This document shows, piece by piece, positions 3,830 to 12,693 of a DNA stretch of 42,894 bases. How positions within the stretch are numbered: the stretch's first letter is position 1; every line of letters starts with the position of its first letter. Below the pieces are notes generated by a model. The model made no database searches. It saw only the letters and a program-made list of their open reading frames with translations, and had not been told where the DNA came from. This DNA comes from Acidobacteriota bacterium (GTDB lineage Bacteria > Acidobacteriota > Terriglobia > Acidiferrales > UBA7541): contig QHYQ01000134.1 in assembly GCA_003224175.1 (NCBI GenBank), forward strand, positions 1-42,894, written 5' to 3'. Position numbers and translations under genes: made by a program.

Positions 3830-3922
3830 GTGCAGGAGTTGGTTACGCGTTATATCATCTCGATGAAGGGCTATACGGCACGGGAGAAAATGAGCGACGC
3901 GATTGCCGGAACTGAATCGTAA
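3830..3922 (+). pseudogene. C-terminal fragment of an unidentified gene upstream of the thiolase
   Basis: A 30-codon frame (VQELVTRYIISMKGYTAREK, then MSDAIAGTES) ends at 3922, only 4 bases before the thiolase ATG, as the last part of an upstream operon partner would. The frame is open a little further upstream but soon runs into the antisense Fe-S oxidase remnant. I cannot assign the family. The body of the gene seems to be missing. Confidence 0.35.
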
Positions 3923-3926
3923 CTCT

Positions 3927-4905
3927 ATGTCAGTTGCCTATATTTGCGAGGGGTTTCGCACTCCCATCGGCCGCTACGGCGGCGCCCTAGCCCAGATCCG
4001 CACCGATGACTTAGCAGCAGTGCCGCTCGCGGCTCTGCGGGAGTGGAGTGGAAAGTATGAGCCGCGCGCCGATGGTCATTCCAAAGGCGTACTCCGCGTT
4101 TTCCAGAACTGCGGAGATTTACGACACCACCATCGGATGGCGCTTCGTGAATCCGGAACTAGCGAAAAAGTATGGCACCGCCTCTATGCCAGAGACAGCC
4201 GAGAACGTCGCGGCCGCTTATCGGATTGACCGATGCTCGCAGGACAAATTCGCTCTTCGCTCGCAGCAGAGGGCTGCCACCGCTCAGAGGGCCGGAATCC
4301 TCGCCCAAGAGATCGTGCCTGTTCATGTTTCGCAACCTAAGGGGCCTTGCAAAGTCGTATCCCAGGATGAGCATTTACGGCCGGACACGACCATCGAGGC
4401 GCTTGCGAAATTGCCGACGCCATTCCGGGAAGGCGGCACGGTAACCGCCGGAAACGCATCTGGGATTAACGATGGCGCCTGCGCGATCTTCGTGGCTTCG
4501 GAAGCCGCAGCTTCCCGTTTTGGATTGACTCCCATGGCTCGCGTCATCGGTACAGCTGCGGCGGGCGTGCCACCCGATGTCATGGGTATCGGCCCGATTC
4601 CTGCCATCCAGAAGTTGCTCGGACGATTCAATTTGAAAATGGATGATATGGATGTCGTGGAAGTCAACGAAGCCTTTGCGGCGCAGGTGCTTGCCGTAAT
4701 TCGTGCCTTCAGCCTGCCTGATGATTGCGAGAAGGTAAATCCAAATGGCGGTGCGATCGCGCTGGGACATCCTCTCGGCATGAGTGGTGCCCGTCTGGTT
4801 CTGACCGCCGGCAGGCAACTGCAGCGCATCCAGGGGCGCTACGCGCTGGCAGCGATGTGCATTGGTGTGGGGCAGGGCATTGCGATCTTATTGGCGCAAC
4901 CCTGA
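3927..4905 (+). pseudogene. acetyl-CoA acyltransferase (thiolase, PcaF/PaaJ-like) with active-site segment deleted
   Basis: The start (MSVAYICEGFRTPIGRYGGA) and everything from VESMSRAP to the C-terminus match thiolases of the beta-ketoadipyl-CoA/3-oxoadipyl-CoA type. Family members are about 400 residues. Here about 75-80 codons between LAALRE (~4040) and GVESMSRAP (~4042) are absent, and the frame changes at the junction. The lost stretch normally holds the nucleophilic Cys (NRLCGSG). The downstream part keeps the other catalytic motifs: NEAFAAQ, GGAIALGHPLG with the His, and CIGVGQG with the second Cys. The C-terminal part could be translated from the GTG at 4048, but without the nucleophile it could not catalyse thiolysis. 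The native role would have been cleavage of 3-oxoacyl-CoA in aromatic or fatty-acid breakdown. Confidence 0.85.
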
Positions 4906-7681: not shown

Positions 7682-8965
7682 TTATTTACCCCTCAGGCTC
7701 ATAACATAAGCGACTAGCGGCTGGTGGTCGGGACTGTCGGCTGGCACATCTGGCATGCCTTTATTTTGGGCATCTGCGCTGGGTTTTACTAGAAACTTTG
7801 AAACCTGTTCGGCTGTCAGTTTCGAGTGAGTGAGATCCGGCGCATCCGGAGTTCCTTCGCCATTCTCGCCATGACAGTCGTAGCACTTATACGCTTGAAA
7901 CCGCTCCTTGCCTTTCGCAATTAGAGCGCTTTGTCGACCGCCTGCTGCAGGGGCGCTCGCCGGTCCGCCGCTAACTGTTGCGCCTGAGGTGGTCGCCTTA
8001 GCTGGTGGATTGATAACCGGGGACGCGGTCGAAAGCGCAGCTTGTTGTTGTTCTAGTACCGCGTGGAACATGGCTTCGTCGATATCGAGTTCCGTCTTGC
8101 AGCCCGCTGGATCGATATAGGGATTTGAGGCACCTGCCTGGAGCTTCGCGTACTTCTCCTTCATGTTGTACATACCCGGATGCGACCCGAGTGGTACGTC
8201 GCAGGGCAATGAACGGCTTACCTGAAAGGCGCGTGTGAATTCTTCTACGATCTGCGGATTAGCAACGTTATTCACCAGCTTCATTCCCGGATTTACACCC
8301 AGGCTACCGATGATCATAACGTCGTAAGTTTTGCCGCCATCCTGGGCCTTCAGGGTCCATGTCGTGCATCCAGGCGTGTGGCCAGGAGTCAAGTGCGCGA
8401 CGAGCGTGGTCCCGCCGAGCGTGACTTGATCGCCGTCGTGCAGCGCTTTGTCAATCGGGTGCGCTTTGCCCGCGGGCTTCATCTGTTCCAATAGCGGAAC
8501 GTCTTCGGCCGTAGCCATCACTTGCGCGCCCGTCAATTGCTTCACGAGTGCATCGCCTTCCATGTGATCCGCATGTGCATGGCTGCCAAGGAGGACTTTG
8601 ATATCGGAAAATTTGAATCCCAGTTGCTCCACCGATTTCTGAATCACGGGCACATCCCGTTCGTACGTGCTATTGATGAGGATATTCCCCTGCGGCGTGA
8701 CGATCAGAAATGATGCCAGGCTCGCCGTGCCTACGTAGTAGACATTCCCGATGATCTTATGCGGCGGGAACTGCGTGTTCTGATCTTCCGGCGTGCCTAC
8801 ATTGTGCTGGAAAAGCTCCTGCTGCGTATAGGTGTGGCCGGCAACGCTAACCTTGGGCCCCGGCCTCTGACTCGCATTGGAGGGTCCCTGCGCATACAAA
8901 GAGGAGACCAAGATAGCCATGACCGCGAAAGCACACTGGGCCAGCCCTAATTTGCGAATTTCCAT
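7682..8965 (-). CDS. exported subclass-B3-like metallo-beta-lactamase-fold hydrolase fused to cytochrome c
   Basis: The 427-residue protein starts at the ATG at 8965, with GGGGAGG four bases upstream and a TATAAT box behind it. A signal peptide covers residues 1-26 (ending SSLYAQ). Residues ~45-300 form a metallo-beta-lactamase fold of B3 type: SHAHADH (128-134), His196 in GHTPGCTTW and His262 in GSHPGMY are the expected zinc ligands. A Ser/Ala/Pro-rich linker (~310-345) leads to a single-haem cytochrome c domain with CYDCH (361-365) and a candidate axial Met404 (KGMPDVP). Family knowledge supports beta-lactam or other amide/ester hydrolysis in the periplasm. Coupling to a haem domain is unusual and suggests a redox-linked function. 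The exported DUF6152 gene lies just upstream on the same strand. Confidence 0.9.
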   Translation of the reverse strand: MEIRKLGLAQCAFAVMAILVSSLYAQGPSNASQRPGPKVSVAGHTYTQQELFQHNVGTPEDQNTQFPPHKIIGNVYYVGTASLASFLIVTPQGNILINSTYERDVPVIQKSVEQLGFKFSDIKVLLGSHAHADHMEGDALVKQLTGAQVMATAEDVPLLEQMKPAGKAHPIDKALHDGDQVTLGGTTLVAHLTPGHTPGCTTWTLKAQDGGKTYDVMIIGSLGVNPGMKLVNNVANPQIVEEFTRAFQVSRSLPCDVPLGSHPGMYNMKEKYAKLQAGASNPYIDPAGCKTELDIDEAMFHAVLEQQQAALSTASPVINPPAKATTSGATVSGGPASAPAAGGRQSALIAKGKERFQAYKCYDCHGENGEGTPDAPDLTHSKLTAEQVSKFLVKPSADAQNKGMPDVPADSPDHQPLVAYVMSLRGK

Positions 8966-8983: not shown

Positions 8984-8989
8984 ATTATA
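8984..8989 (-). promoter_or_regulatory. -10 box TATAAT for the MBL-cytochrome gene
   Basis: On the minus strand TATAAT lies 18 bases before the ATG at 8965, with the GGGGAGG ribosome-binding site between them. This gives the gene its own promoter, downstream of the DUF6152 gene. No clear -35 box is seen. Confidence 0.5.
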
Positions 8990-9033
8990 CGTGTGCGAGG
9001 CTTTCAGGTGAAGCACCCTGACTTAAGCAATCG

Positions 9034-9429
9034 TCAGGGGCCGTACGCTTTGCCGTAGCACATCAGCTCGCGGCCATTTGCCAGTACCACCTTCGACAGG
9101 CGCAGCTTGTACGTGCCGTCGCCGATGCGATTACCTACGATCGTGATCTGATCGCCTGGATGAAGCGTGTCTTTGGTCCAGCCCGCATTAGCCATGCGGC
9201 TGGGGCTCGGACCGCCGGCACTCCATTTCTCGACCTCGCCCCTGTCGTTTTTCACGTCCAGATCCATCCACACATGAGGATTTCCGAAATCGAACCCGGT
9301 CACGGTGCCTGTCATCGAGGTGAGATGTTTCATATCGTAGCTGCGCCAAGCGTGATGGGCGAAGACAGGAGCAGCCGCGAGCAGCAGGGAAAAAGCAAAT
9401 GCAACGAGTGTCAAAAGCTTGGTTCTCAT
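9034..9429 (-). CDS. DUF6152 family exported protein
   Basis: The 131-residue protein has a signal peptide (MRTKLLTLVAFAFSLLLAAA, cleaved after VFA). A mature part follows that begins HHAWRSYDMKHLTSMTGTVT and contains NPHVWMDLDV and a short OB-like beta pattern (KDTLHPGDQITIVGNRI). This is the signature of the DUF6152 family, common in acidobacteria and proteobacteria. Its members are exported, and their biochemical role is unknown. The HHAW start may bind metal, which is inference. AAGAGG lies before the ATG and a TATAGT box (minus strand, 9456-9451) further upstream. It is 68 bases upstream of the MBL-cytochrome gene on the same strand, so the two may work together in the periplasm. Confidence 0.85.
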   Translation of the reverse strand: MRTKLLTLVAFAFSLLLAAAPVFAHHAWRSYDMKHLTSMTGTVTGFDFGNPHVWMDLDVKNDRGEVEKWSAGGPSPSRMANAGWTKDTLHPGDQITIVGNRIGDGTYKLRLSKVVLANGRELMCYGKAYGP

Positions 9430-10412: not shown

Positions 10413-12693
10413 ATGTTTAATCGGATCAAGGGGTTGCGCCGATTCAGAATCGCAGCAATTATCTGCTGTGCTGCCTTGGGGCTATCCTCAACGGCGGCGC
10501 ACGCGCAAAGCTTCAGCATTACGCCCCTGGCGAGCAATAAGAACAGCAAAGCCTCTTTTCCTTCCATGGTGACTGATTCTCGAGGGAACCTCAATGTGGC
10601 GTGGATTGACAGTGTGAATGGTCTTCAATTCGCTCGCTCCGCGAGCTCAGCAAGCGGAACATCTTTCGGTACCCCGCCGGCCATAACAACCATAAAAGGA
10701 CCGAACAACACGCTGGTTTTCCCAAGCTTCCAGCCCCAGCTCGCCGTTTATCCGACACAGGAGAACGTGATTGAGATCACGTGGGCCTCTCCCGATGCCA
10801 CGTCCACGCCTGCGGCACCGTTATACGACATATGGGCACCGATCGAGCGATGGAGGAGCTAACTTTGCAACCACACCGATGATGATCGCCGGCCCGGTTG
10901 CGCTCTTCGACGGGCCGCGGCTGGCTTTTGACGGCACGGGAAAAACTGACATAGTCTGGGGCCGGAACAACGTTTGGATCAGCCAAGCTCAAGATGGCCT
11001 TACCTTTCCCACAACGATCCCTCTCATGCCGGCGAATACTCCGATCGATACGGGGGGGCCGCGGATCGCGGTAAATGCCGCCAGTCATATTTTCGTGGTG
11101 TGGACCGACGAACTGGCAAAGGACAACGCGAAGACCGGAGATGGAAACTTCTGCACGAATAAAACTACGGATGAGAACCAAAGGGTCACCAACACCTTCG
11201 GCGGCAACATTTGGATCAATGAAACGTTGCCCAACAACGATCCCACCGTCCAGCTGAACATTAGCTTCCTCAATACGCGCAACCTTTCGAATACGGACTG
11301 GAAGCTTCCAAACACTAATCCCCAATTTTCCTTGAACCTAGGGTTCTATGGCTGCTCCTATGACAACATGAATCTGTTCCTCGATCACGTCGGACTTCTC
11401 CACCTGCTCTGGTCGGATGACTCACCCGATGAGGATGTGCTGACGAGTAAAACCCAAGCGACGTACCCGGCGGGATCGCCGTTCGCCGGTCTGACCCAGT
11501 TCTCGTTCCCCATCAATCTGGCAAGTGTCCTAGCAGCGTCCCCAAAGGTTACAGTTGATAACAATGGGGCCTTCTACGTTGCTTGGTCGGGAGGCCCAAC
11601 CGGCGGACCAAATTCCCAAGGCATATTCTTTAGCCGCTCGGACGACGGCGGCAGTACTTTCACGAGCTGCGCTCCGGGCAAACTGCCACTGTGTCCGGCT
11701 ATCAACATCGCCCCTTCAGGCTCGGTGGCGCCAGCTTTCCCACAGGTTGCCGTTGACCCCAGCGGCAACGTGAATATTGCGTGGGAGCAGCCAACCGGGG
11801 CCCTTAAAGGCGATGGCACTGATATGTTCAACGTCTTGTTCGCCCGCTCGACCGATAAGGGCCAAACATTTCCCACCGTGTTGCAGGTGTTCACGAATCC
11901 CTCAACACTATGCTACGAGGCGCCTCCGCCTCCGCAAGGCACTACGCCTCCGACCGCTCCGACCACCCCGGATGTCACTACCTGCGGGACGGTCCAGCTC
12001 GGAGTGGACGCGAATTCCACTCCGGATATGGTGTGGGTCAACCAAGCCAGTGGAAGCGCAGTTGCGGATATCGATTTTGCTACGACGAACTTTCCGACAG
12101 GCTCGGTCTCGCCTACGACAGCAAGCTTGTCGGCATCCAGTACGTCAGCGAATTTCACCGTAACAGTGAATCCGAGCGGCTTTTCCGGTCTAATCAACTT
12201 CTCCTGCCTGAATGCCGATACGAAGGCTGCGCTTCCGAGTTGGCTTACTTGCACCTTTAACCCGCCCCAACTCAATCCTTCCCAGAGCAGCACGGATAAC
12301 CTGACGATTTCGCGCGTAGGCACGCCGACAAGTGCAATGTTCATTTCGGCGTCCCCTTCGCGCAGCCTGCCTGCAGTTGCACGGATTGTGGGCTTGGCCG
12401 CGCTTTGGATAATGGCGACGACGGCGATGCTCGCCCTGGGCCGGCGCCGAGAGTTTCGCTCTGCCATTCTGATGCGTGGCATCCTGCTGATTACTCTGAC
12501 GGTGATGCTGGCCGCGGGGCTCGTGTCTTGCGGGGGCAGCACATCAGCTACAAGTACAGCGAGCACAAGCGGCTCAGGCGGCACTGGAGGTAGCGGCGGC
12601 GGCAACTCGGTTAGTATGCACGTTGCCGTCATGGCTCAATCCAGCGGCACAGCCGCGGTAAATTTGGGCACGGTCACAATCACCGCACAGTAG
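10413..12693 (+). pseudogene. exported BNR/sialidase-like beta-propeller protein with Ig-like C-terminus, broken by a frameshift
   Basis: The first frame (10413-10862) starts with a signal peptide (ICCAALGLSSTAAHAQ) and a propeller repeat (FPSMVTDSRGNLNVAWIDS). It runs into a stop just after YDIWA. The next frame, from about 10840, continues without loss (RSSDGGANF) to 12693. Together they make about 760 residues, so one extra base near 10839 explains the break. Asp-box-like repeats recur: RSDDGGSTF and RSTDKGQTF, with VDNNGAFYVAWS- and VDPSGNVNIAWE-type strands. A beta-sandwich segment (SANFTVTVNPSGFSGLINFS), two hydrophobic segments with a lipobox-like VSCGG, and a Gly/Ser-rich stretch end the protein. 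It is probably cell-surface or secreted, substrate unknown. It could be a real pseudogene or a one-base sequence error. Confidence 0.8.

Follow-up and report, generated by a model that had tools for sequence, protein, structure and literature searches.

The 42,894 bp window analysed here (contig QHYQ01000134.1, from a soil member of the Acidobacteriota) carries an ORF that encodes a secreted metallo-β-lactamase (MBL) of subclass B3 joined by a floppy linker to a cytochrome c (Table 1). The ORF starts with an ATG at position 8965 of the minus strand with a GGAGG ribosome-binding site directly upstream, and its neighbours encode a DUF6152 protein, an OsmC protein, a 317-residue protein and a sigma factor. 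The initial annotation had described an exported protein with complete zinc and haem sites on either side of a flexible linker, and each of these elements is present: a signal peptide, the zinc ligands within S128-H129-A130-H131-A132-D133-H134 together with H196 and H262, the haem site C361-Y-D-C364-H365 with M404, and an AlphaFold model in which the MBL domain is confident, residues 315–342 have a pLDDT of ~35 and the helical haem domain is moderately confident. It had also known of no characterised enzyme of this kind; we likewise found none described with an MBL and a cytochrome c in the PDB, Pfam, NCBIfam or the literature searched, and a literature search on MBL–cytochrome c fusions returned nothing relevant. 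The domain architecture is new, is assembled from two known kinds of domain and is restricted on present data to one genus.

Table 1. Features of the fusion gene and its upstream flank, with coordinates in the window
Feature	Position	Strand	Evidence
Fusion gene: exported B3 metallo-β-lactamase, linker and cytochrome c (427 aa)	7682..8965	-	ORF list; profile searches; orthologue L034:1532-2812 at 87%
Sec-type signal peptide MEIRKLGLAQCAFAVMAILVSSLYAQ, residues ~1–26	8888..8965	-	Boundary by eye; predicted helix 8–24
Subclass B3 MBL domain, residues 63–310	8036..8779	-	NF033105, 271.8 bits; FEZ-1 alignment; Foldseek to FEZ-1, 2.2e-30; ligand columns
Pro/Ala/Ser/Gly-rich linker, residues 311–343, predicted disordered	7937..8035	-	pLDDT ~35, lowest at 315–342; dN/dS 0.42
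Monohaem cytochrome c domain, residues 344–427, CYDCH 361–365, axial Met404	7685..7936	-	Pfam PF00034; homologues
DUF6152 exported protein gene, upstream neighbour	9034..9429	-	PF19649, 78.6 bits; 91% identical neighbour in L034
Promoter-like sequence TTCACC-17-TATAAT, directly upstream of the fusion gene	8984..9012	-	Consensus match only; 2 found versus 1.2 expected in shuffles

The protein matches the NCBIfam subclass B3 model with an E-value of 4.9e-81, its score lying above the curated cut-off of 240 bits, and the FEZ and BJP models are among its best matches; FEZ-1 and BJP-1 are also the best solved relatives, and Pfam Lactamase_B covers residues 85–204. Judged by its sequence, the domain is a B3 relative for which identity as a FEZ allele is excluded by the score against the NCBI exception model (285.7 bits, below the cut-off of 600). 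The putative ligands H129, H131 and H196, and D133, H134 and H262, correspond to the standard H116, H118 and H196, and D120, H121 and H263; among 67 aligned sequences the first five ligand columns are invariant and H262 is kept in 63. Alignment with FEZ-1 places a serine at position 221, with no bridging Asp or Cys, as is characteristic of subclass B3; other MBL-fold families carry a bridging Asp there. The active site departs from FEZ-1 in its 155–172 loop, which has 17 residues rather than 28, and in a Met rather than a Tyr at residue 228. Neither is a product of the fusion, since the short loop is common to unfused relatives and residue 228 varies among them too. Both features make substrate prediction unsafe, and β-lactam activity cannot be assumed.

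The C-terminal domain has the CXXCH motif and the distal Met (in GM404P) that define class I monohaem cytochromes c by sequence, and matches Pfam Cytochrom_C at residues 349–395, scoring 25.8 bits where the cut-off is 21.3. A CXXCH motif arises by chance in 0.3% of shuffles of the fusion protein, and the organism has cytochrome c assembly genes. When the domain was folded alone (pLDDT 68) the top Foldseek match was cytochrome c6, followed by other c-type haem proteins, all of them weak matches with E > 0.3. The closest relative found is the C-terminal haem domain of a congener's multihaem cytochrome (L121:1495-2508; ~65–67% identity). The module also occurs on its own, as a lipoprotein in a sister genus (L087/L119 and L120; L087 is 57–60% identical), and bears a more distant resemblance to the cytochrome c tail carried by acidobacterial respiratory cytochrome b. 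All of these relatives are electron carriers by family, and the haem domain belongs to a small mobile module, of which searches of the window genome and its sister gave no stand-alone copy. The multihaem cytochrome gene of the congener adjoins an amidohydrolase-like gene.

The same fusion is present in an independent assembly that represents a second species-level genome (L034; QHYS01000315, Acidobacteria gp2 AA82), where it is 87% identical over all 427 residues, keeps every ligand, and has matching flanks in the order OsmC, DUF6152, fusion, 317-aa protein. In a third genome the haem end alone is seen, 86% identical and with its haem ligands kept, before the match runs off the contig edge; it lies in the same chromosomal place, beside sigma factor and thiolase genes. 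The synonymous divergence between the two complete copies (dS 0.43–0.52) indicates that these fusions have truly diverged. Although the window genome is a fragmented draft of 624 contigs, there is next to no chance that an assembly artefact or a frame error joined two genes, since the fusion recurs at this divergence in an independent genome with the same neighbours.

Comparison of the two complete copies gives a dN/dS of 0.100 in the MBL domain and 0.104 in the haem domain, against 0.42 in the linker. The first two values show purifying selection on both halves as estimated from this pair of sequences. We therefore reject the haem domain as a decaying passenger, its dN/dS being equal to that of the MBL domain, and both halves look functional.

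The origin of the fusion can be read from its unfused relatives. About 60 close relatives, sampled at the level of family, order, class and phylum, end after the MBL domain, at approximately residue 310, and the window genome itself encodes two unfused paralogues (L002, 65%, and L003, 50%). In a maximum-likelihood tree of 66 MBL domains the two fused copies form a clade with 100/99 support that is nested among unfused proteins, and since the fused pair lies inside an unfused clade the haem domain was gained once; as far as this phylogeny reaches, the fusion is shown to be a derived, recent and single event in which the module was added to an unfused MBL lineage. Outside the window and its sister, none of the 89 family, 95 order, 399 class and 396 phylum genomes searched (the samples overlap), and no plasmid, gave a match that reaches the haem domain without stop codons; the query was the fused protein, and independent fusions to a different cytochrome could escape it. 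One match that reads through to residue 377 (L052) crosses four stop codons and was not counted as a relic of the fusion. In the loci of unfused relatives that were checked, no split pair of MBL and cytochrome genes was found within 4 kb, except for a multihaem gene in L037.

The initial annotation had also drawn attention to the DUF6152 gene next to the fusion. The adjacency stands, the two genes lying 68 bases apart on the same strand, but as a sign of a functional link it is weak evidence, since there are 82 DUF6152 genes in the window draft genome and 100 in the sister genome. The family is greatly expanded: three congeners have 31, 75 and 100 copies and a related genus 22–25, none occurs in 14 control genomes, and a literature search on DUF6152 returned nothing relevant. 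The sister genome has the same two promoter-like hexamers in the corresponding position, and because this conserved site sits between the genes their co-transcription is uncertain. A DUF6152 gene is also next to the MBL gene in L014/L015 and L055; at 22–100 copies per genome, 0.014–0.05 are expected within 1.5 kb of each locus, and over ~60 loci the adjacency is not clearly enriched above expectation, so that a conserved operon was rejected. A secreted family of ~245 residues without a Pfam match is often found beside DUF6152 genes (L038:5624-6361; also L014, L015 and L055).

None of the neighbours of the fusion gene encodes a redox partner, and a role in anti-phage defence was set aside as there was no PADLOC match. 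Some unfused relatives have a gene for a PQQ dehydrogenase nearby (L036, L043/L045 and L046) and some a molybdenum hydroxylase pair (L039, L118 and L061), while the surroundings of others include a Rieske oxygenase, a cupin protein or housekeeping genes; L036 begins at the end of a quinoprotein gene that is closest to the glucose/quinate family. PQQ dehydrogenases and molybdenum hydroxylases often feed cytochrome c. The neighbours of some unfused relatives thus hint at periplasmic small-molecule oxidation.

Three other observations were made. Compared with the sister genome, whose copy is uninterrupted, the thiolase-like gene at 3903–4905 of the window is missing ~230 bases, among them those around its RLCGSGMEA motif, and changes frame there; either the gene is broken or the assembly is at fault. 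At 10413–12693, a pair of overlapping ORFs in different frames reads as one secreted repeat protein, which suggests a frameshift. The label of L042, titled as a Bordetella parapertussis metagenome-assembled genome (MAG), is probably wrong; its MBL gene and gene order match those of a Bryobacterales MAG (L041).

The explanation that we prefer, and to which we give about an even chance, is that the protein may be an ordinary FEZ-1-like B3 di-zinc hydrolase with a tethered electron carrier that docks to, or serves, a periplasmic oxidoreductase. The MBL domain would open a strained or activated ring (a β-lactam, a lactone or similar) in the periplasm, presumably by the usual zinc-hydroxide mechanism. 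The haem would take no part in hydrolysis and would act as a tethered electron shuttle. Its partner, a periplasmic oxidoreductase or the bc/oxidase chain, would handle the same small molecule, and the shuttle would keep the hydrolase beside this partner or accept electrons from it. Because hydrolysis needs no electrons, the tether more likely concerns partner and place than the chemical step, and since most relatives lack haem, the MBL reaction does not generally require it.

Somewhat unlikely, though the strongest of the competing explanations, is a plain periplasmic β-lactamase to which the cytochrome c was joined by chance, with no role in the enzyme's task except at most as an anchor, and was kept as a small cytochrome. 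The protein passes the NCBI B3 β-lactamase cut-off, the gene for a functional soil B3 β-lactamase, which shares 70% identity with a protein from Acidobacteria, emerged from a selection for resistance in E. coli (PMC9243250), and the fused copy may replace the stand-alone haem module that neither the window genome nor its sister appears to have; the shortened 155–172 loop and Met228 nevertheless speak against a plain β-lactamase. Homologues able to dispense with the haem domain had been raised as a case against a joint role: nearly all homologues do without haem, but the fused lineage conserves the haem domain as strictly as the MBL domain, so it does something.

A closer cooperation is rather improbable, namely that the zinc hydrolase and the haem would act on the same substrate: after the ring is opened, or in a step coupled to its opening, oxidation would proceed via the attached cytochrome, either directly or with a docked dehydrogenase. 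Hydrolysis coupled to oxidation had been proposed in the initial annotation, and no feature of the sequence endows the MBL domain with redox chemistry. If it were true, ring opening and oxidation in one tethered unit would be an enzyme kind not described before.

A special case of the preferred explanation, to which we assign a small probability, is a lactonase for sugar or acyl homoserine lactones that would clear the lactones produced by a periplasmic dehydrogenase, with the cytochrome taking the electrons of that dehydrogenase. MIM-1 and SAM-1, both of subclass B3, are efficient lactonases in addition to being lactamases (PMC7392888), and the position of L036 at the end of a quinoprotein gene fits such a pairing, but no dehydrogenase lies beside the fused gene. 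Slightly less probable again is redox-coupled catalysis, in which the haem would exchange electrons with the MBL metal site, for example when iron-loaded, or directly oxidise the hydrolysis product. Other MBL-fold proteins, the flavodiiron and ETHE1 proteins, do perform redox chemistry with iron, but they use a carboxylate bridge or a mono-iron His/His/Asp set, unlike the B3 zinc set with Ser221 and no bridging acid that is found here. The long and disordered linker also leaves the geometry between the haem and the MBL site unfixed in the AlphaFold model. On the other side, PuuD provides an instance in which a C-terminal cytochrome c became part of an enzyme, there on a new enzyme domain and belonging to an oxidase (PMC4562309).

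Cytochrome c domains are usually found on oxidoreductases, and here one is kept on a hydrolase whose family counts clinical carbapenemases among its members. The fusion arose once and unfused paralogues are present in the same genome, so it offers a clean comparison for the roles of B3 enzymes in soil bacteria beyond drug resistance, and for any tie to periplasmic respiration.

The subclass B3 enzyme FEZ-1 of Legionella gormanii is ~50% identical to the MBL domain and has the six zinc ligands, S221 and N225 in common with it, and the predicted structure has a TM-score of 0.89 over the FEZ-1 chain (Foldseek 2.2e-30); it differs in having no haem domain, an active-site loop that is 11 residues longer and the Tyr at 228. 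The unfused acidobacterial B3 relatives (L009/L035, L010/L047 and the paralogue L002) are closer, at 65–75% identity with the same N-terminal extension and short loop, but end right after the MBL domain with no cytochrome. The stand-alone lipoprotein cytochromes have the same CXXCH and GMP motifs as the haem domain but carry their own lipoprotein signal and have no enzyme attached, whereas the multihaem cytochrome of the congener has the same kind of Ala/Ser linker, and its C-terminal module is joined to other haem domains and not to a hydrolase. The membrane urate oxidase PuuD is similar in its plan of an enzyme domain followed by a C-terminal cytochrome c (PMC4562309), although its catalytic domain is an oxidase and that of the fusion protein has a zinc hydrolase fold.
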